Shown in pieces: positions 18,622 through 64,000 of a stretch of DNA of 64,000 nucleotides. Made by a program: the position numbers and the translations under genes. Origin of the DNA: Ophiura sarsii. Taxonomy: Eukaryota > Echinodermata > Ophiuroidea > Amphilepidida > Ophiuridae. The stretch's first letter is position 1; the number at the start of each line of letters is the position of its first letter. Below the pieces are notes generated by a model. It saw nothing but the letters and a program-made list of their open reading frames with translations, was not told where the DNA came from and made no database searches. The stretch covers positions 157,510,996-157,574,995 of the forward strand of contig CM069441.1 in assembly GCA_035610835.1 (NCBI GenBank), given 5' to 3'.

Positions 18622-18721
18622 NNNNNNNNNNNNNNNNNNNNNNNNNNNNNNNNNNNNNNNNNNNNNNNNNNNNNNNNNNNNNNNNNNNNNNNNNNNNNNN
18701 NNNNNNNNNNNNNNNNNNNNN
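18622..18721. other. Assembly gap (100 N)
   Basis: Exactly 100 N, a conventional placeholder of unknown true length. The left flank has a GC palindrome (CGCCGCCGAAGGCGGCG) and long T runs that may have blocked sequencing. Reading frames across the gap have no meaning. Confidence 0.99.
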
Positions 18722-30724: not shown

Positions 30725-31650
30725 GTACAATATTGATTTCTTAATACTGCAATTTAATAATTATGTAACTGTATGAGCTTAACTGTACAATATTATGGTA
30801 TTTGTCTATCAAGAAAGGCAGATTTAGGACACTATTTTACCTTCACTTACTACAACATGCATGTATGGTTAAGCTTAGCTTGAGCCTACCATAGACTTCC
30901 TACATCGTATTTTCACTGTAGCGTGTATAAGGGCAAACACATTTCAAGTCATGTTTTCTAGAATTTCATGTTGGTTAAACTTTAACCTGTGGTTGGTTAC
31001 AATTTTTTATTAATTTGTTAATTTGTTAATATGTTTTAACAGTGGTTGGTTAAAAAATGTTAGTTAAACTTCTTTTTTTTGGTGCTAAACTTTAACATTT
31101 GGTTGGTTAAAACTTTCAACCATTTGTTTGTTAATTCTGCTAAACTTAACCATTTGTTGCTTGATATATAACATGGATATATAGAACGTGCCTCAACCAT
31201 TTCATCAACTGCTACATGTTAATTTATTGTTATAGATCCTATGTGAACCAAATATGATTAATTTTGAAAATGTTGAAAAATAGTGATGAATCTACGATGC
31301 CTCTGGTCAATACAATAATAGTAGACTTCATCATCAAAGGCTCAGACAGTTACATATTATTAAATTACAGTATTAAAAATCTATCCTGTACCTTGAAACA
31401 CTCCGTCGTCTACCATGATGTCGCAGCAATAGTTTGATTTCGTAATACGAAATAAAGCCAAATTCACTGGAAGAAAAAAAAATATTTGTTTTCCTTTTTT
31501 TTTTAAATCAACTAATCAACTAAAAAAATCAAAAAATTGTGTTTAACTCACGTACGATTATACTATTTCGGGTAGGGCAGACCCCTTGATTACCAGGGCA
31601 TGCATATGAATATCACGTTAATGTTAGTAAGTCATTACAGCTTGTCAATT

Positions 31651-32623
31651 GCTATAAGAAGAAAAATTGAGGAGATAAAGAACAACAATCTAAAAGCAGC
31701 CCTTGTTTTCATTGCCTTCCAGAAAGCATTTGATACCATCCTCCGAGGAGAAATGCTGGACATTCTACAAGCTTATGGAGTCCCAGAGAAGCTAGTGTCT
31801 GCCATAGGGCTAATGTTCCGAAATATTACTGCTCATTTTACATCACTGCAAGGTGTTACACAAGATTTCAACATCCAGCTAGGGGTTCTACAAGGTGATA
31901 CACTGGCACCATTCGTATTCATCACTGTGCTTGACCACGTCCTGAGAAAAGCTTTAAACGGCAATGAAGAGCTTTTGCGGATGACATTGCCCTACTAGCA
32001 AACAACCTCAAAGATGCAGACAAACTACTACACCTTGTGGAAGCTGCTGCGCTCACGAGCTAGGTGCTTGGATGGCTAGTAGTGAAAAGGACTATAACAT
32101 CAGAAAGGCACAAGCTTGGAAAGCATGTAATAAATTGAGTAATATCTGGAAAAGTAAACTTCCAAGGGACATGAAGCTGAAGCTATTTACAACGACAGTG
32201 GAACCAGTCCTGATATATGGAGCAGAATCCTGGTCAATCACTTCCAAAACAGAGAAGGCCTTAGATGGCTGCTACACTCGTCTCCTAAGAAAGGCGCTAA
32301 ATATTTCATGGCAATCGCATACTACCAATAAAGATTTGTATGGAAAACTATTGCTGATCTCTGTGATGCTACAGTCGAGGAGACTAAAACTTGTCGGTCA
32401 CGGTTTTCGGAGTAATGACGAAGCAGCAGCCAAAGTTCTCTTGTGGCAACCCAAACATGGAAGAAGATCCAGGGGACAACCCAGAAAAGACTACTAAATC
32501 AGGAATATTACAGAGGACAACGGCTTAAGTGGACAAGGATCTGAAAAATGGCATGAATGATAGAGCAGTGTGGAAGGCCATCACAAAAGTATGATCTTTT
32601 GGGTCGCCATAAGCAAGTAAGCA
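31651..32623 (+). pseudogene. 5'-truncated LINE: reverse transcriptase remnant
   Basis: The frame beginning RKIEEIKNNNLKAALVF is the middle of a non-LTR reverse transcriptase: KAFDTI motif, LQGDTLAPF motif, then the catalytic (F)ADD sequence displaced into another frame at 31977. About 100 residues are missing after ALLANNLKDADKLLHLV. The frame restarts with LGAWMASSEKDYNIRKA and ends in the conserved C-terminal region (GAESWSITSKTEKALDGCY, LVGHGFRS, RRSRGQPRKDY). AGCTTGTCAATT occurs at 31639-31650 and 32624-32635, a 12-bp target duplication. The 3' end is AAGCAAGTAAGCAAG. The LINE clade is not certain. Confidence 0.8.
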
Positions 32624-42736: not shown

Positions 42737-43315
42737 GTATTCGATCATGCAGAGTTCAAAGCAGCAAAGAAGGTTATCATGGAAGGTTAAGCTTAGGTGA
42801 ATATGACATCCCACCAGAGATCCTAAAAAGATGTGACCTTGATGAATATTATCCATGATGCACTACTAAAAGACAGAAAACCAGAACAGTGGTTACTTCT
42901 CAACCTTATACCAATCCCAAAGAGTGGTCATTTACGAGAAGGAAAGAACTACAGAGGAATATGTCTGTCATCCATTGTAGCGACAACATTCAACAGACTG
43001 TTGCTAAACCGGATAAGACCATTCCTTGATCCTGTCCTACCTGCTCTAAGAAAAAGAATTGAGGAGATAAGGAACAACAATCTAAAGTACGTAGCTCTTG
43101 TTTTCATTGACTTCCGGAAAGCATTTGATACCATCCACCGAGGAAAATGCTGGACATTCTACAAGCCTTTGGAGTCCCAGAGAAGCTAGTGTTTGCTTAC
43201 AGAGGACACCGGCTTAAGTAGATAAGATCTGAAATATTGCATGCATGATAGAGCAGTGTGGAAGGCCATCACAAAAGTCCGACCTTTTAAGTCGCCATAA
43301 GCAAGTAAGCAAGAT
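42737..43315 (+). pseudogene. LINE reverse transcriptase fragment, same family as 31651
   Basis: The first part translates, with stops, as a region containing EFKAAKKVI and IPPEIL. A clean frame at 42833-43189 then gives NLIPIPKSG, KNYRGICLSSI and VFIDFRKAFDTIHRGK, motifs of the RT fingers and palm. After EKLVFA the sequence jumps to the 3' untranslated end (CTTACAGAGGACACCGGCTT … AAGCAAGTAAGCAAG), identical in type to the copy at 31651. It is 5'-truncated with a large internal deletion. Confidence 0.75.
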
Positions 43316-45774: not shown

Positions 45775-47825
45775 TTTAATGTTGAGACCATTGGGCTCTG
45801 TTGTGTCAAGCATCATGATCCATTCCTTCTCCAAGATCCTTCTCATGATAATATCGTTCTTTGCATGTAACGGAGATGTTACAAGCGTTGTGGTTCGGTA
45901 AGTTGAAATGACGACCAACTTGTTTGTCCCTGTTGTGTCTGGCGTCAGCGCAATGCTCACCTACTCGACATTCCAGAGTGCGACCAGTCTCTCCAACATA
46001 CTGCTTCTCACACGTTGCGCAGGTAATGAGATATATGACATTGTCCGATTGGCAAGATAAATGTTTGCGTATGGGAAACGTCTCTCCAGCAGAAGAGCTG
46101 GTGAAAGTTGTGTTCTCAGAGGTATGATAAATAGAAACTCTACCAACATCGGAGTGTACCCCTTTGTGGTTGCAGGATTTGCACTTGGAGCCACCACAAG
46201 GATATGAACCTCGAAGAAGAGGTGTGATCCGGGGAAGAGTAGATCTCACTAGAAGGTCTTTCAGGTTGGCACTTCTACGGTAAGCCACAATGGGAGGGTT
46301 AGGGATATTCCTACACTTATTGGAAGAGTGGAGAATGGGAAGATGACGGCGTATGATTTTGGAAATGCCCGGAAGCGAAGGATAGTACGTAACCACAAAG
46401 AGAACCCGGTCAATACTGTTATCACTGCCACCAGTGGGTTTAAGGGCTTCAAACCTGGGTATAGACAAAGCTTTGCTGATCTGCGTGGTTACCAACCGAC
46501 TGGAATACCCTCGATCCCTGAGAAAACCTGTGAGTTCAGAAACTCTAAGCTGGAGGTTTTCAGGTGTGGAACATATTCTATATTCAGTCTGAAAGCCAAA
46601 CCGTAAGAAAGACTGCGCTTGGTATGTTTGGGGTGACAAGAAGTCCAATGAAGGAATTGGTGGGAGTCTGTAGGCTTAGAATACAAGTCTGTTTGAAGAC
46701 CACCATCTGAAATAGACACCATGACATCCAAGAAAGGTACCTCTTTGGTAGAAGATTCGGAAGTGAACTTGATGGAGGAATGGAAGTTGTTACACATTTG
46801 AAGAAAACTGTCAAGTTCCTCTGAGCCATGAGTCCATATAAAGAAGATATCATCAATGTACCGTGTCCACATGAGGGGGGCTTTTGGAGAAGACAAGAGA
46901 AGTCTGCTTTCCAATAAACCCATGAAAAGACAAGCCATCGAAGGAGCCATCTTAGTGCCCATGGAGGTGCCAGAAATCTGAAGGAAGTTATCCTCACCAA
47001 AGATGAAATTATCGTGAGTGAGGACAATCTCCATAAGCTCACAGAAAGAGTCAACCTTCTCAGGAGGCATGCTATGTTCTAGAAACGAACGGCAAGCAGC
47101 AATACCTTCTTCTGTAGGGATATTGGTGTACAGTGCAGACACGTCCATAACACACAGGATAGCATTAGGAGGAAGAGGGCCATTGCGCTTGATGGTCTCA
47201 AGTTTACGAAGAAAGTCCATGTCGTACTGCACATAAGAATCCAGCTTAGACACCAGGGGTTTTAGATGATAGTCAATGAACAAGGAAACCTTTTCAGTAA
47301 CGGTGCCATTGCCGCTGATGATGGGACGACCGGGGGGTATGCTGTCGTATTGTTTGTGAATTTTGGGAAGAGTGTAGAATCTACCCGGCTTGGGGTTTCT
47401 AGGCCTAAGTAGTGCTGTAGTTTCAACTCCTTATCAATTAGGCCTATGGTAACAGCTTTGTTAAGAGCTTTGTCAACATCCTTGGTGAATGTAGGAGTGG
47501 GATCGTGGTCAAGCTTAGTGTAGTACTTGGTGTCATTGAGTTGCCGTGAACATTCTTGGATATACTGCTCACGATCTTGTATGACCACCGCTGATCCTTT
47601 GTCTGCCTCCTTGATGATAATATGCCTATTACTTTTCAAGTCATGAAGAGCTGTATCTTCATGGGGTGTAATGTTGCGATAGGTCTTGGGAGTTATATCA
47701 TTCATGATGTCAGCATCAACAGCAGTTATATAAGCGTCAAGAAAAAGATCATTGCCGGGAGAATGAATTGCTGGTATATGAATATTCACGCATGCACCAC
47801 CACTGAACAACCGCCGGTTGACTTA
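45775..47825 (-). pseudogene. Penelope-like reverse transcriptase / GIY-YIG endonuclease, frameshifted
   Basis: N-terminal part (47810-47410): IIKEADKGSAVVIQDREQYI. A frame change near 47405 leads to FYTLPKIHK and PPGRPIISG, then the RT core with DVSALYTNIP, SGTSMGTKMAPSMACLFMG and the catalytic RYIDDIFFIW, and KPTDSHQFLHW. A second frame change near 46600 leads to VTYYP…ISKIIRRHLP, a Cys-rich stretch (CGGSKCKSCNH) and the GIY-YIG-type nuclease (VIYLITCATCEKQYVGETGR, 46040-45980). A third, near 45830, precedes the end (WIMMLDTTEPNGLNIKD). RT followed by a C-terminal GIY-YIG domain defines Penelope-like elements. The start is not an ATG and the 5' end looks truncated; the copy is inactive unless the shifts are sequencing errors. 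Confidence 0.9.
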
Positions 47826-52398: not shown

Positions 52399-52611
52399 GT
52401 TCTCGTGAAGCTCGTCAAACTCAGGGTGCCGGTACAGGAGGCGCCGCTGCAGGAGGCGCCGGTACAGGAGGCGCCGGTACAGGAGGCGCCGGTACAGGAG
52501 GCGCCACTACAGGAGGCGCCGCTACAGGAGGCGCCGCTAGAGGAGGCGCCGCTACAGGAGGCGCCGCTAGAGGAGGCGCCGCTGCTGCTGCTGGACCGGC
52601 AGCTTGTAATC
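52399..52611 (+). CDS. Lipase gene, exon 2 (Gly/Ala-rich repeat linker)
   Basis: After the acceptor TTTTCACAAG, 71 codons start with SREARQTQ and continue with about eleven units of a 15-bp repeat. The repeat encodes Gly-Gly-Ala plus two variable residues (Gly/Ala/Thr then Thr/Ala/Arg). The exon ends AAAAGPAACN before donor GTAAGT, phase 1. The segment joins signal peptide and lipase domain and is likely a flexible, possibly O-glycosylated spacer. Such a linker is not part of the usual pancreatic lipase architecture. The repeated GGAGGCGCC DNA makes length variation between alleles likely. Another frame across this exon is also open but is a by-product of the 15-bp period. Confidence 0.8.
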
Positions 52612-56480: not shown

Positions 56481-56761
56481 CGCCAAATTGTGTTTGTTAT
56501 CCTCCAATTGGATGCTTCAGGAAACGAGCACAATGTGTTGAAGCTAATGCACCATTACCGGAGTCACCACAAAAGATAGGTACAACCTTTAGGTTATATA
56601 CCAGAGGCAACCGAGAAATCAAGACTATCTCACCAACCATGTCGGCAACAGCAATATTCGCCGCCGGGTTCGATTCACGACGCGCCACTAAGATACTCAT
56701 TCACGGCTGGACACAGAACGCAAATTCATTTGATGGATTGAAAAATGTGCTTTTGAAGAAG
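56481..56761 (+). CDS. Lipase gene, exon 3 (lipase domain N-terminus)
   Basis: Acceptor CTTTTCCTTACAG. 281 nt, phase 1 in, phase 0 out at AAG/GTGAGC. Sequence features: NCVCYPPIGCF (the CY…GCF start common to pancreatic lipases), FRLYTRGN (the RFLLYT-like strand), ILIHGWTQN (oxyanion-hole HG motif, with W where many vertebrate enzymes have F), and LKNVLLKK at the end. The chain joins directly to GDFNIIMVDW in exon 4. The fold is an alpha/beta hydrolase acting on lipid esters outside the cell. Substrate cannot be read from this part. Confidence 0.9.
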
Positions 56762-57213
56762 GTGAGCTCATTCAGTTGCCCATTGTTATCTTTGTTTAAG
56801 AATATAATAATAACTAACAACAAATGATCATTTTTTTTGTTGAAAAAAGAAGTCAAGGTTAAATTCACATTAAAATAGACATGATTGTTCAAAATCAATG
56901 CTGATAGGCAGGCAGCCTTACTTAGCTAGGCTAACACAGGAGTTCAACGTTTATATATATTTATGTTTAACATGTTGTCATTCAATTTTCTAGGAGAAAT
57001 CATTGGAACTATTTATACTGGATTGATCCTTTGATAAGAAAAACAATTACTGGTTAGAATCATTTACTAAAAAAATAAGCGGGGCTTCTAAACAAAACAA
57101 AACAAAACAAAACAAAGGTTACCACCAATGACTATTAATGTGAGCGAAGGATCGAAATAAAACTTCTAAAACCTCGTTAGAAATGTTAAATTAAACACTT
57201 TCCACCTGACATA
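56762..57213. other. Start of lipase intron 3, nothing recognised
   Basis: AT-rich intron sequence with an (AACAA)n-like microsatellite near 57090-57115. Confidence 0.5.
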
Positions 57214-57390
57214 CGAGTGTCAGTCAGTAAGTAATGAAAGTGATCATGGTATGGAATGCATGGATGATTCTATTGAGGGATAATGTAATCAATACAAAGT
57301 ATGAACCTTTGTCTTTCAAACAATACACTTTTGGATTTCTAAGTATCAACTATGACGTCATAGCATTAGCGTTAACTAAGTTAAAGTCCT

Positions 57391-57887
57391 TTCAACATCC
57401 GACTGATACATATAATATCATGGTGGTCATGGGTTAAGTGTAGGTTAATGCTTGGTTGGGGAGATGGTGGTCCTGTAAAGCATGTAGCCAGCTGGGCTGG
57501 TGATACGGTCATGCCCCAACAGGTGACAACAGGCAGCTCCTGGTAGATTTAGTTCCCATGTTTGTTGTATAGGTTCTCTTGATGCCCATCAGACCTCCAG
57601 ATATTATTATTTTTCTATAATTTATATTTTAATTATGTTGTTCTCTATGTTTGGGCTTTTATCTTATTATTATGTCACTTTCATTGGCATTTTTTAACCT
57701 CTGCCCATTTGTGTGTCTTGTTTTATGCATATTTTCTGAGTTGCAGTGAACCAATTGATTGGCCTTTCAGAGCTCTCTTTCGGGAGTTACCAGTTTGATT
57801 TTTAATCACTCTGGTCATTAACCTTGTTAATGTCTGTTGGGCTATTGTTCACATTTGCGCTTTATATACAAAAAAGAAGAAAAAAAA
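57391..57887 (+). mobile_element. Probable retroposon inserted in the mariner-like element
   Basis: This segment separates parts that are contiguous in the right arm (59103-59130). It ends GGGCTATTGTTCACATTTGC, then GCTTTATATAC, then an A-rich stretch, similar to a LINE/SINE 3' end. The family is not identified. Confidence 0.5.
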
Positions 57888-58774
57888 GTACACTTGGGAC
57901 ACTGCCTGAAATTGGTCAATATTTGGCTGGATTTGTAATAGGTTGAAATATGGGTTGTTTGAAACAGTTGCGTGTATCTCGGCAATGCAAGCATAGAAAC
58001 AGATAACAATTGGTGCATAGTTAGAACACATAATAATCTCTGTTTCACACTTTGTTTTAGATCCGAATTCCTTAATACAAACAAGAAGGGACCATCTCAA
58101 ATACGTTTTTATAAAGCAAAATCCGCAACAATAAACCTTAGAAAACAACAAAGGATAAAGAACAATGGAGGGATCATAATTTAGTAAATTGTTGTGGGAT
58201 GTAAAGCAATAATAGTGGGCATTTCAAAAGGAGCTGATCATAAAATGTCCTCAATCCATTAAAATTATGTGACGATTACTTTAACAGTACACATCTAGTA
58301 GCTCCAAAGATAGCAGTAACAAGAGAGGTTGTGGCAGCCATCTTTGATTGATATATTCATGTATAACTTCATTTTGACTAGCACAATAAATATACAAATT
58401 GATAAACGCATTTGTCAATATTTCTGATTAAAATTTGAAGGCACAGTAAGCTTTTATCTGGTAAATTTCATGATTTTAGCCATTTTTGGCCCAGTTCAAA
58501 ATTATATGCCGTCTGCGCATGCGCATATTTTCTGTAAATGGGTTTATTGCTTGTTTTTTCCTAACTTGTTTGATTTTCCGCAATACTAGTGCTTCACTGA
58601 CTGGGCATTTTTCAATGAAAATGGGCTATTTGAAATATTGATATTTGTATACGTTTTATTCAATTGCTTATCCTTACTTTTTCCTCTTATACTACACATT
58701 TCAAATTACACAGGGATTAAAGTTATTGTCTTTTGTATCATAATTATGCGAAAATAAAATCGGGATTTACATGA

Positions 58775-58779
58775 TTCTG

Positions 58780-58811
<32 letters not shown>

Positions 58812-59079
58812 CATATTTGTATAGCGCCTAACATCGAGATCCCTAAGCGCTTTAACATAAAAACATAATAACAAACAAATACATGGATATGGACTACAAT
58901 TAAAAAGCCTTTGTGAACAAATGAGTCTTTAAGGATTTCTTAAACTGAAATATAGTCTCTGCATTTTTCACATGAAGTGGAATATTATTCCAGAGTTCTG
59001 CAGCTGACACAGAGAAGGAACGTTGACCATACTGAGTGGACGTTGAAGAGCAGACGTGTTTCATTTAAACAATTCAAAC
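58775..59079 (-). pseudogene. 3' end of a CR1/L2-type LINE
   Basis: On the - strand a frame reads QYGQRSFSVSAAELWNNIPL, then HVKNAETIFQFKKSLKTHLF and ends TKAF-stop at 58900. This is the conserved C-terminal tail after the RT domain in CR1/L2-like LINEs. The 3' untranslated part has AAGCGCTTAGGGATC…GGCGCTATACAAATATGG and ends in about ten ATT units. Strongly 5'-truncated, lying inside lipase intron 3. Confidence 0.75.
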
Positions 59080-60077
59080 TTCCCGCCAAATAATTGATTT
59101 AACAGTGTCCCAAGTGTACTAACTTTAAGCTAATGATATGACTTAATAGTTCATACTTAGAATTCCAAAAGTGTATTGTTTGAAAGACAAAGGTTCATAC
59201 TTTGTATTGATCACACTAGCACTCAATAGAATCGCTCATGCATTCCATATCATGATCACTTTCATTACTTAATGACTGGCCCTCGTATCATATGTAGGCC
59301 TACTGTTTTTCGTCTTGACACACCCATGATTCAGGGGACCATTATATTACATATGAAATTCCATGAACAAGTAAGGGGGCTGTAAAGTCTCAGGAATTGC
59401 CACCGTTAAACTGCCGGAACTTCTTCATTATTCATTTAATATAAAAGTATACATTTTTAGAAAAGGAAATGAGTATAAGAGAATCTATTTTAGACATCAC
59501 TTTTTTGGCTCAAAGTTTGCTGCAAACGTAGCAAAATTAGTTTTGGTAAAAATGCTGAAATTGCACCAACATCATCTAAGGAAACATCTCTAGGGAAATG
59601 TTTTTAGTTTTGAAATACAACTGTTTAGTCTGCCTTTTTTGGTTATAGAAAATATGGTGGGGTTAAGACGCAACCTGAAATCTAAGTCTAGGAATCTCTA
59701 AGGATATAATTATCTAATAATATTGATATCATATTTTGGTATCTGAACCACAATTAGATATTAGGTGTATACAAAATAGGACTCTGTTTTATGACGGTAT
59801 AATTCTTATTATAATCATTGGACCATGACCAATTTAGTCTCAATGTAAAGCCCAATTAATTATTATGACATCCTGAAAATATAAAATCAATCCGATGCAA
59901 AATAAGAAAACTAGCGTACTTTGCGTAAACCATGTCATTTACTGGTGTGTACAATGGGATCTACATGACTAAACAAACCAGTAAATAACATTATTAGAAT
60001 GAAAGTTCATCTGTGTTGGTGATAAATAATATGAAGTTAAACTTTCGATCTCAACACAAGAAATATTTACCTGGAAT

Positions 60078-60105
60078 TTTCAAATGTTACTACACCTTTC
60101 ATCAG
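60078..60105 (-). ncRNA. Hammerhead-like core, left arm
   Basis: The - strand reads CTGATGA, a hairpin (AGGTGT-AGTA-ACATTT, imperfect) and GAAA. It is the inverted partner of 60409-60436. Confidence 0.3.
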
Positions 60106-60408
60106 CGGACTAATGACTCGACTTGACCTTTTGGAGGTGTGACGTCAGAATCGGGTCATAGACTCTTGGTAATTTGTACCTGCCCCCGTCTTTGTTGAGT
60201 GATGGTTGGTTGGCTCTGATGTAAATAGCCTCCTTGACACCTCTCTCGAACCAACGAGGATCCCTATCCAAGATCTTGACTTTGTCTATAAGTCAACACT
60301 GTGTCCTGGTGACTCAATATGGATGTGTTGGGATACCTCGGACGAGGTGGAACTAGGACCCGATTCTGACGTCACACCTCCAAAAGGTCAAGTCGAGTCA
60401 TTAGTCTG

Positions 60409-60436
60409 CTGATGAAAGGTGTAGTAACACCTGAAA
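60409..60436 (+). ncRNA. Hammerhead-like core, right arm
   Basis: CTGATGA, a perfect 6-bp hairpin (AGGTGT-AGTA-ACACCT) and GAAA give the conserved core in the right order. One extra A precedes the stem, and stems I and III are not evident, so function is uncertain. Confidence 0.4.
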
Positions 60437-60463
60437 ATTCCAGGTAAATATTTCTTGTGTGAA

Positions 60464-62988
60464 CAGGGTGGATATATAGGGTGAGTAGAAAAAAGTGTAC
60501 TCTGATTGAAAAATAAATTTAAAATATTTCTGACCACAAAATTAAGGCAACCAATAATTTAATCAATTACGCCATTTATCTGCTCTCATCGGCAAAAAGA
60601 ATCACGGCAATATATGGTACCGTTTAGTTGATATGAATCTTTCTGTAAAATAACTGAATTTTGAAACCGAACAAATTTGTGATTTCACGCTCAATGAGCG
60701 CTTAATAATGTGTACTAGGATTAACATGTTAAGGATTACACAGTCTATTTATTAAACCAATTAAATAAATAATAGCCTTGTTCAGAATTTCTCCTCATTA
60801 TTTAACATGAAATAAAGATAAGATATTATAACCACTTGTGAGTTAAAGTAATTGCAAGGATTTAAAAATGATCCATAGATTTCATAAACATGATAAACAT
60901 GACGAGGACGTGAAATAAAGTATTTTGAATAAAAATAGTATTGCACCTATTGTTCATAAATATGTTCGATTAAATAAATGTTGACTTCTATACGGTCAAA
61001 TATCGATGCCCACAGTAATACTAGTAAAGTAAAAGTCTCTCTCTCTTTCTTTACATCGACATTCATTATTGAAGACAATTTGTTTTCAGGTAAGTCCAGC
61101 AATAGCCAAATAATCAAGCAGCTCTTCCCTCTACTTGACCACCATTATTGTAAATACAAAGTCTCGCTCTGGTCTTCATGCTGTTGGTGGCGCGCCTGGA
61201 GATCCTTCTTTTTGAAGGAAGGGTTTTGGCACTTTGTTGGCAAGATTTTAAGAGAGTTATTTTGTTGCCAAAATTAAAAAAGATGTGCATTTTAAGTGTA
61301 ATTTGATATGATACCAGAAAAAGATTCTCCGGCTCATTTCCGTTCCAAAGATGTATACTTTTATATACATCACATTAATAATTCAAAAGTTACAGCGCTT
61401 GATAAATCCTACGCTTTTTGTTTGGTGGGGCAACCGCCAACCTTATAGCATCAGATTGCATATTCTTGGACATTTAGGTCTTTCTACATATACATGGAGG
61501 CTGCCATTTTGTTTTTAGTATATGGAAAATTGTCTAAATTATTTTGCAGTCTTTGTAAATTACATGTACCTATGCAGTTTATTTTAACAGTCCTGCAGTC
61601 TGTGATGGAGTCAAAGCTATATTTGTTTAGCCTTGATGATTTTAATCAGAGAGATGTTATTAGACTCCCAACAGAGAGACATAATAGCTTATCTTGTTTG
61701 ACTAAAGTGAAATCTCCCAACTGTCCAGATGTTATACACATTACAATTGTGGTCTCAGATACTACAAGGTTTGCATGAAATATCTATGTGTATGAAAAAT
61801 TTCGCGACTGGCTAGGATTGGTGAAATTGTCATGCTCACAAGCTTTTAGTATTCTTATTAGACATTATTAGAAAGGTGTACATTTGTAAACATTTCATGA
61901 TGACAAATGTGGGTTCTTCTGCATCACGAACATTAAATGCCGCGAAAAAATAGTGCTTGCTTTAGAATAAACCACAGATAGTCAAAACCAGGGATAGATT
62001 TCTGTCGGTAAAGCTTGAAGCTATCCTTGTTTCGCAACAAGGTCACCCCTTGCTCAGCATGTGGTGCTGATTGAGTTGTTACTGCCACAAGCATGTTTAG
62101 CAACATATCTTTACTGTAAGGATTCCCACCCCAACACTATGATTAAAGATCATCGATTGTTATTTGCATTTAAAATAGCCTGATATTACACCTACTTTTC
62201 TCAGTTCTAAAAGGATCACATCTTGGGGGAAAGGCTAAGAACGCCAGGATTGACATTACTTTTTAAATAAGCTTCTTACAAAAAAAAGGTGAAGATTTGC
62301 CATTTAGCAAATAATTAATTTTTGTTATTGTTCATATAAATCAACAAAGCAGATACATTACTGGACCCATTTATTTATAAAATAACAACAGTTGTTTTGT
62401 TTGCTGAGTGTTTATCACTAAACTATGGCTGTAATTTATATTGCTTTCAAGTAATGCCATGCAAGAATCTTGCACAATTATCATCTATGCGCTTGCTTCT
62501 TCTGCCACATAATTTTAGCAACAAAAAGCCGTTTTTACAAATGTTGCTATTTTTGCTCTTTCTATTTGCCTTATATCGCAATTTCCTTTTGACCGCCAAC
62601 TTTCCATTTTAATGGAATTGTTATTACCCCTTAAAGGTAGACTGGTTTAATGATGTTGTACGAAGGGAAGTTAGCTATCAATGTATGATGCAATCAGGTT
62701 TAGGAACACGACAGACAGAAGCAGATTATATGAGACACCTTTTTGACACCATTTGTCATCTGTCAACTTTCAACATCTAGACATGCGTGTTGATTTCCGG
62801 ATCAATTAGGGACCGGGTCTTTCTCGAAGATAGAGGAAATTTGAATAATCTGACGGTTTCATGACCATCAATGTTTATCACTTCGGTTTATCAGAGTGAT
62901 GCAACATTCACTTCACTCATATGAACGATTTTGAGTATGAAGTTGAGTTTCTGAAGAAAAAAACCCTATAGGATTTGAACACTATTTG
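60464..62988. other. Lipase intron 3, unassigned
   Basis: No exon or element recognised. Frames at 60978-61277 and 61494-61778 have no family resemblance and lie inside the intron. Confidence 0.45.
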
Positions 62989-63789
62989 AATATTATTATG
63001 GTTGACTACCCAAGCAACGTGGCTTATTCTTATTCAGTAAAATATGTTTTCCTACAACAGGGAGACTTCAATATTATTATGGTTGACTACCCAAGCAATG
63101 TGGCTTATTCTTATTCAGTAAAATATGTTTTCCTACAACAGGGAGACTTCAATATTATTATGGTTGACTACCCAAGCAATGTGGCTTATTCTTATTCAGT
63201 AAAATATATTTTCATACAACAGGGAGACTTCAATATTATTATGGTTGACTACCCAAGCAATGTGGCTTATTCTTATTCAGTAAAATATGTTTTCCTACAA
63301 CAGCGAGACTTCAATATTATTATGGTTGACTACCCAAGCAATGTGGCTTATTCTTATTCAGTAAAATATATTTTCCTACAACAGGGAGACTTCAATATTA
63401 TTATGGTTGACTACCCAAGCAATGTGGCTTATTCTTATTCAGTAAAATATGTTTTCCTACAACAGGGAGACTTCAATATTATTATGGTTGACTACCCAAG
63501 CAATGTGGCTTATTCTTATTCAGTAAAATATATTTTCCTACAACAGGGAGACTTCAATATTATTATGGTTGACTACCCAAGCAATGTGGCTTATTCTTAT
63601 TCAGTAAAATATGTTTTCCTACAACAGCGAGACTTCAATATTATTATGGTTGACTACCCAAGCAATGTGGCTTATTCTTATTCAGTAAAATTTATTTTCC
63701 TACAACAGGGAGACTTCAATATTATTATGGTTGACTACCCAAGCAATGTGGCTTATTCTTATTCAGTAAAATATATTTTCCTACAACAG
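62989..63789 (+). repeat. 81-bp tandem array of splice-acceptor/exon-start units
   Basis: A 72-bp partial unit (62989-63060) is followed by nine full 81-bp units starting at 63061, 63142, 63223, 63304, 63385, 63466, 63547, 63628 and 63709. Each full unit starts GGAGACTTCAATATTATTAT, a copy of the start of exon 4, and ends TTTTCCTACAACAG, an intron acceptor. 81 bp is 27 codons and no unit has a stop in the exon frame. Units 4 and 8 begin CGA instead of GGA. The TATGTTTTCC and TATATTTTCC variants alternate, so units 1-4 and 5-8 form a duplicated 324-bp block. Confidence 0.9.
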
Positions 63790-64000
63790 GGAGACTTCAA
63801 TATCATTATGGTTGACTGGGAGAAAGGTGCAGGAATATCCGGAAGATGGCCGCTAGCTTACACACTGCCTGTACAGAATACAAGAGTGGTTGGAAAACAA
63901 ATCGCCATGATGATTTCACATCTAAAAGCCGTTGCTAACACCAACCCATTGTCTGTTCACATAGTTGGAGCTAGTCTTGGTGCTCAAGCAGCAGGGTATG
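63790..64000 (+). CDS. Lipase gene, exon 4 (nucleophile region), runs off the window
   Basis: Using the last acceptor (cag at 63787-63789), phase 0, the exon starts GDFNIIMVDWEKGAG. It continues with RVVGKQIAMMI and VHIVGASLGAQAAGY up to the window end. IIMVDW and the GXSXG nucleophile motif (GASLG, Ser in the middle) are hallmarks of the pancreatic lipase family. The second position is Ala where the family usually has His. Direct joining to exon 3 gives a normal family spacing (LLKKGDFNIIMVDW). The catalytic Asp and His and any C-terminal PLAT domain lie outside. About 253 residues of a usual ~450 are visible. If an upstream array acceptor is used, the protein gains 27 residues per unit. Confidence 0.9.

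Follow-up and report, generated by a model that had tools for sequence, protein, structure and literature searches.

Background

In-frame alternatives of one exon can arise from tandem acceptors of the NAGNAG type, in which usually two sites lie a few nucleotides apart and share a branch point, and acceptor arrays within a gene are also known from tandem exon arrays such as that of Dscam. The locus described here, a lipase gene of Ophiura sarsii, differs from both. Its ten acceptors lie 81 nt apart, instead of the 3 nt of NAGNAG sites, and each has its own branch-point matches rather than one in common. Unlike in Dscam-like arrays, its repeat units contain no complete exon or strong donor, as only 28 exon bases are repeated before the homology to the exon stops and the donor-like string in each unit is GTAAAA.

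The closest precedent that we found is the VNTR in intron 18 of human ABCA7. According to the available text of PMC5954066, that array also lies directly at an exon-intron junction and its unit begins with a splice site; the isoform keeping one extra unit amounts to 2 +/- 1%. There, however, the unit is 25 bp long, starts from the first intron base, carries a donor and is out of frame, whereas here it is 81 bp long, includes 28 exon bases, carries an acceptor and is in frame. Furthermore, the ABCA7 repeat is described in the same text as length-polymorphic and as altering splicing, whereas the present one is known from the sequence of one assembly. A second likeness is to intron gain by tandem duplication of a stretch with a proto-splice site (PMC2891723, available text), in which splice signals are copied as well and a duplication by a multiple of three can give alternatives. 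In those gains a new intron is made from an exon, whereas here an old intron was extended and only the acceptor was multiplied.

With regard to the choice between acceptors, the parts of a survey of alternative 3' splice sites that were at hand (PMC9225289) state that when two sites are separated by more than about 20 nt the choice between them is typically made at first recognition, with a branch point for each, and that over all such first-step pairs the upstream site is preferred. For near-equal acceptors with long introns on both sides of the exon this preference is significantly reduced, and the authors of the survey conclude that exon definition favours the sites with the shortest distance across the exon. 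Within the literature on repeats and splice sites, covered mostly outside the subscription journals, we found no description of acceptors repeated in an array.

The host gene and its intron

The window, i.e. the whole stretch of 64,000 nucleotides analyzed here, corresponds to positions 157,510,996-157,574,995 of contig C1 in an assembly of 1.57 Gb and 748 contigs. At its end, on the forward strand like all features of the gene, lies a lipase exon of 250 nt (exon 4 in the numbering of the earlier note), which occupies 63790..64000 of the window and truly ends at 64039. The open frame containing it matches the Pfam family PF00151 with an E-value of 2e-12, and the joined exons reach 78.4 bits at a cut-off of 27. 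The best protein match of this exon is P0001, a pancreatic lipase-related protein 2-like sequence of the brittle star Amphiura filiformis, whose residues 76-159 match from 63790 onward; the identity is 67% across the aligned part and, for residues 67-159, 70%. Searching the assembly with P0001 gave at least 15 listed matches, of which the four at the array-bearing gene are 58-80% identical and those elsewhere are weaker. Both the host lipase and P0001 have the nucleophile motif GASLG, in contrast to GHSLG in many relatives.

The upstream coding exon (exon 3 in the same numbering, 56481..56761) ends with LKNVLLKK and the donor AAG/GTGAGC, and its start at 56481 is proposed from TTTCCTTACAG. Residues 1-75 of P0001 match 56537-56761 by tblastn, and the join LLKK/GDFN is seamless and collinear with P0001, a predicted lipase of 362 amino acids that has no extra residues; the exon end at 56761 claimed in the earlier note is thereby supported. 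As the stretches 56537-56761 and 63790-64039 are collinear with P0001, the ordinary product should be one without an insert. Between them lies a phase-0 intron of 7028 bp (56762..63789), placed by tblastn homology and by the same intron position in paralogs, of which the array forms the 3' end. The following exon begins at 67950, in coordinates extended past the end of the window, after an intron of 3910 bp.

Four other lipase loci were located in the genome (C17 near 9.68 and 21.47 Mb, C1 near 145.8 and 155.5 Mb), and all three paralogs whose junction was read have an intron at the same phase-0 site. The intron is therefore old rather than novel. In all three, the exon frame meets a stop in the final 18 codons of the intron, and Tandem Repeats Finder detected no tandem array at their acceptors, its sole entry at these loci being a short array of 15-bp units in L012, far upstream. 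Compared with the three read paralogs, the array is seen in the array-bearing gene alone. A diverged lipase-like locus on C1 near 155.5 Mb (L016 and L010) has the nucleophile motif GHNMG, which lacks the serine, and a stop inside one exon match, and it may be inactive or a pseudogene.

The remainder of the window contains, on the minus strand at 45806-47430, an RVT_1 open reading frame (E-value 1.5e-9) followed by a GIY-YIG open reading frame (E-value 1.1e-6), a layout which we take to be that of a Penelope-like element. Two further fragments of RVT_1 reverse transcriptase frames lie on the plus strand (31576-31998 and 42827-43189, the second just under the Pfam cut-off), and a tandem array at 52428-52583 has 10.4 copies of a 15-bp unit and several open frames. 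An assembly gap of 100 N is present at 18622-18721.

Structure of the array and of its acceptors

Tandem Repeats Finder reports an array at 62989-63817 with a period of 81, 10.2 copies, 97% matches, no indels and a score of 1581, which is contiguous with the splice junction at 63790 as placed by homology. The repeat and frame analyses confirm the main claim of the earlier note, a tandem array of ten in-frame acceptors in front of a lipase exon, and several of its details had to be revised. There are ten acceptors but not ten full units, as the first unit (62980..63060) is broken at its left edge: bases 62980-62988 match the unit at only 3 of 9 positions and the array homology starts at 62989. 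Units 2-10 (63061..63789, 81 bp each) differ pairwise by a mean of 1.39 of 81 bases. The start of the exon is indeed repeated in each unit, over 28 bases however and not over about 24; by sequence comparison, 63790..63817 is copied nine times within the array, with 27 of 28 bases identical in seven copies and 26 of 28 in the other two. The common mismatch, ATT for ATC, is silent, and in two copies the first base is additionally C where the exon has G. Likewise, a 27-residue repeat peptide is present in every unit but is not constant, with variation at V/I, L/I, G/R and Y/F.

The units carry distinct variant patterns, and the C at position +1 recurs four units apart. An A/G variant alternates at seven of nine steps between units; 16.5% of shuffles reach the same value, and the alternation thus does not demonstrate expansion in steps of two units. 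No special RNA structure was found across two units (z +1.10). The open frame of the array matches PF00009 (GTP_EFTU) with 28.3 bits at a cut-off of 26.5, no single stretch of it passes, and we regard this match as an artefact of the repeated peptide. When the unit was compared with the 1.57-Gb assembly, all 11 matches among the best-scoring candidates fell within the array or on the start of the exon, i.e. at one locus, which rules out a dispersed repeat or satellite at that depth; elsewhere in the window just matches of 13-18 bases occur.

Each unit bears a copy of the splice site, the first exon bases being at 63061 + 81k (k = 0-9) with 63790 as the last. The first acceptor, TTTTCCTACAACAG/G, occupies 63047..63061, and the complete acceptor that had been ascribed to each unit is exact at nine of the ten; the one at 63223 (63209..63223) reads TTTTCATACAACAG. 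This acceptor as well as those at 63304 and 63628, in which the +1 base is C, look weakened. All ten have YTNAY matches at -56, -35 and -29, the latter two being the branch-point match CTTAT, together with a modest pyrimidine tract and CAACAG. According to a 3' splice-site score built on approximate consensus values, and valid for ranking only, seven of the ten share rank 3 among the 351 AGs from 56901 to 63830, while the weakened ones rank 29 (63223) and 31 (63304 and 63628). The last acceptor, 63790, scores no higher than six upstream ones, which counts against its dominance. In addition, every one of the ten units has a second acceptor-like string, TTCAG, at a distance of 23 nt from the main acceptor on its upstream side; splicing to this string would make TAA the first phase-0 codon (first site 63033..63040, exon base 63038 + 81k).

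Reading frame of the unit

All ten units are open in the frame of the exon, which bears out the earlier statement that each has 27 codons without a stop and could add 0-9 copies of a 27-residue block. In the consensus unit the exon frame is the sole open frame of six, the other five having stops. For comparison, 485 of 2970 YAG-ending 54-mers in the window are stop-free in the same register, as are 175 of the 920 pyrimidine-rich ones; with a chance of 1/3 for a length divisible by three, the joint chance of a unit that is in frame and stop-free is about 5-6% (~1 in 16-18). The open frame is mildly unusual and is no strong evidence of selection. Between units there are four amino-acid-changing differences and one silent one, in agreement with the 181 nonsynonymous to 48 silent (and 14 stop) among all single changes, so that there is no sign of the peptide being kept; five changes are too few to judge avoidance of stops, since 74% of such sets show none by chance.

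Origin of the array

The left edge of the array starts inside the exon-derived part (AATATTATTATGGTTGACT). Bases 62986-63007 share 20 of 22 positions with the start of the exon and then the homology stops, which gives a truncated border. Before the amplification, intron and exon would have shared 18 of 19 bases at a distance of 62 bases, and by a simple reckoning this is far beyond chance, suggesting that the match in the intron has to be a copy. Unequal exchange at the shared 19 bases, as had been proposed in the earlier note, accounts for the amplification but not for the presence of such a match in the intron, and requires in addition that copying had taken place beforehand or that the left edge was deleted afterwards. 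Two courses are conceivable: a first duplication that afterwards lost part of its left side, or a template switch that carried exon bases into the intron. We infer as the founding event that the final ~53 bases of the old lipase intron were duplicated in tandem together with the first 28 bases of the exon; the resulting unit would then have spread to ten near-identical copies.

Splicing across the array

In our opinion the locus is best explained, with a probability of roughly 60%, by a recent minisatellite that has grown across a splice junction and is largely silent, with minor in-frame isoforms of +27n residues. Each unit would carry a working-looking branch point and acceptor. As both neighbouring introns are long (7028 and 3910 bp), the exon would be recognized by exon definition, and in most transcripts the spliceosome would select 63790, the acceptor that lies nearest, for pairing with the donor at 64040, so that the ordinary lipase results. 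The dominance of 63790 is expected because long introns lower the preference for upstream sites (PMC9225289, in the parts at hand); against it stands that the section in question speaks of a reduction, without stating a clear reversal for equal acceptors. We infer acceptor choice and isoform levels from these considerations, and most likely the extra nine acceptors are used rarely, in line with the share of 2 +/- 1% for the isoform with one extra unit in ABCA7; the strong upstream ones (63709, then 63547) might be used at a low level and would add 27, 81 or more residues.

The extra residues would come to lie between a helix and the core strand GDFNIIMVDW, where the loop is short. In an AlphaFold2 model of P0001 (mean pLDDT 81.7, and 95, 93 and 96 for residues 61-70, 71-80 and 81-90) the predicted helix spans residues 62-75 and the strand 79-84, with the splice junction after residue 75, and each 27-residue insert would accordingly be predicted to enter a loop of three residues. 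The extra peptide is carried by none of the proteins found in the database (0 of 3 and 0 of 1). A transcript-derived protein of this species was not found in the protein database, from which the species seems absent; the missing peptide therefore says little, as the ordinary product is also absent.

The array could instead produce a true ladder of isoforms, with several near-equal acceptors used at comparable rates to insert 0-9 blocks and a unit number that varies between individuals. The tie of seven acceptors, the identical YTNAY matches that all ten share at -29 and -35, the open frame of all units and the general preference for upstream sites (PMC9225289, available parts) argue for it, and an insertion at the end of the helix in the P0001 model might be borne. 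However, the exon would then lengthen from 250 nt to up to 979 nt, the choice of upstream sites is weakened by long introns according to the same parts of the survey, the modelled loop leads straight into the core strand, and the proteins found in the database lack the peptide, even though the weight of this is lessened by the apparent absence of the species. We therefore consider comparable use of the acceptors unlikely, and it seems more doubtful still that a length-variable in-frame array would act as a graded splicing device that provides different animals with different lipase ladders of 0-9 blocks. Similarly doubtful is a role as a poison or decoy buffer, in which the TTCAG/TAA sites and the spare acceptors divert splicing into transcripts that are degraded because of their stop, so that the lipase output is lowered, or tuned with the unit number. 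The TTCAG sites, present in every unit and followed by TAA, rank 15 of the 351 AGs, but only 6 nt separate them from the nearer CTTAT match, and the next base is T. They are probably poor splice sites, and may be skipped because of this short distance.

A wrong unit number, or an array that is altogether an artefact of the assembly, has to be considered since there is a single assembly and near-identical repeats are easily miscounted; the distinct variant patterns of the units speak against it, as does the distance of 44 kb to the only N run in the window, and we judge it very improbable. Hardly credible, finally, is that the array represents diverged lipase coding sequence, i.e. the tail of one exon joined to the following one, rather than intron. 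The exon tail that begins at the tryptophan of HGW has the same length as the last 18 codons of the intron, and these codons resemble the family average as well as only 2 of 485 stop-free controls do and the gene's own exon tail better than all 485; in bases, 15 of 6148 controls reach 26 of 54. These comparisons used 115 family rows, including P0045, which is misanchored, and at least one, P0006, which is one residue out of register. Full shuffles were as good in 19 of 5000 cases for the own exon and in 17 of 5000 for P0001, and with the first 34 nt kept in 58, 1 and 26 of 5000 (own exon, P0001 and profile, respectively). On the profile, however, 169 of 5000 full shuffles were as good, and with the last 20 nt fixed the numbers rose to 551, 1446 and 2485 of 5000 in the same order. 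The resemblance thus sits in the last 20 nt, where the acceptor itself encodes F/L/Q, and since the three read paralogs also have their intron at the same site we rejected the unit as lipase coding sequence.

Conclusion

If the array is indeed a minisatellite that has grown across the end of an old lipase intron, as we favour, it shows that a splice junction can tolerate such growth. Its ten evenly spaced, in-frame and near-identical acceptors amount to a natural competition experiment on the choice of the 3' site in the presence of long introns, and should the unit number vary between animals, they would also provide a dose response for acceptor choice.
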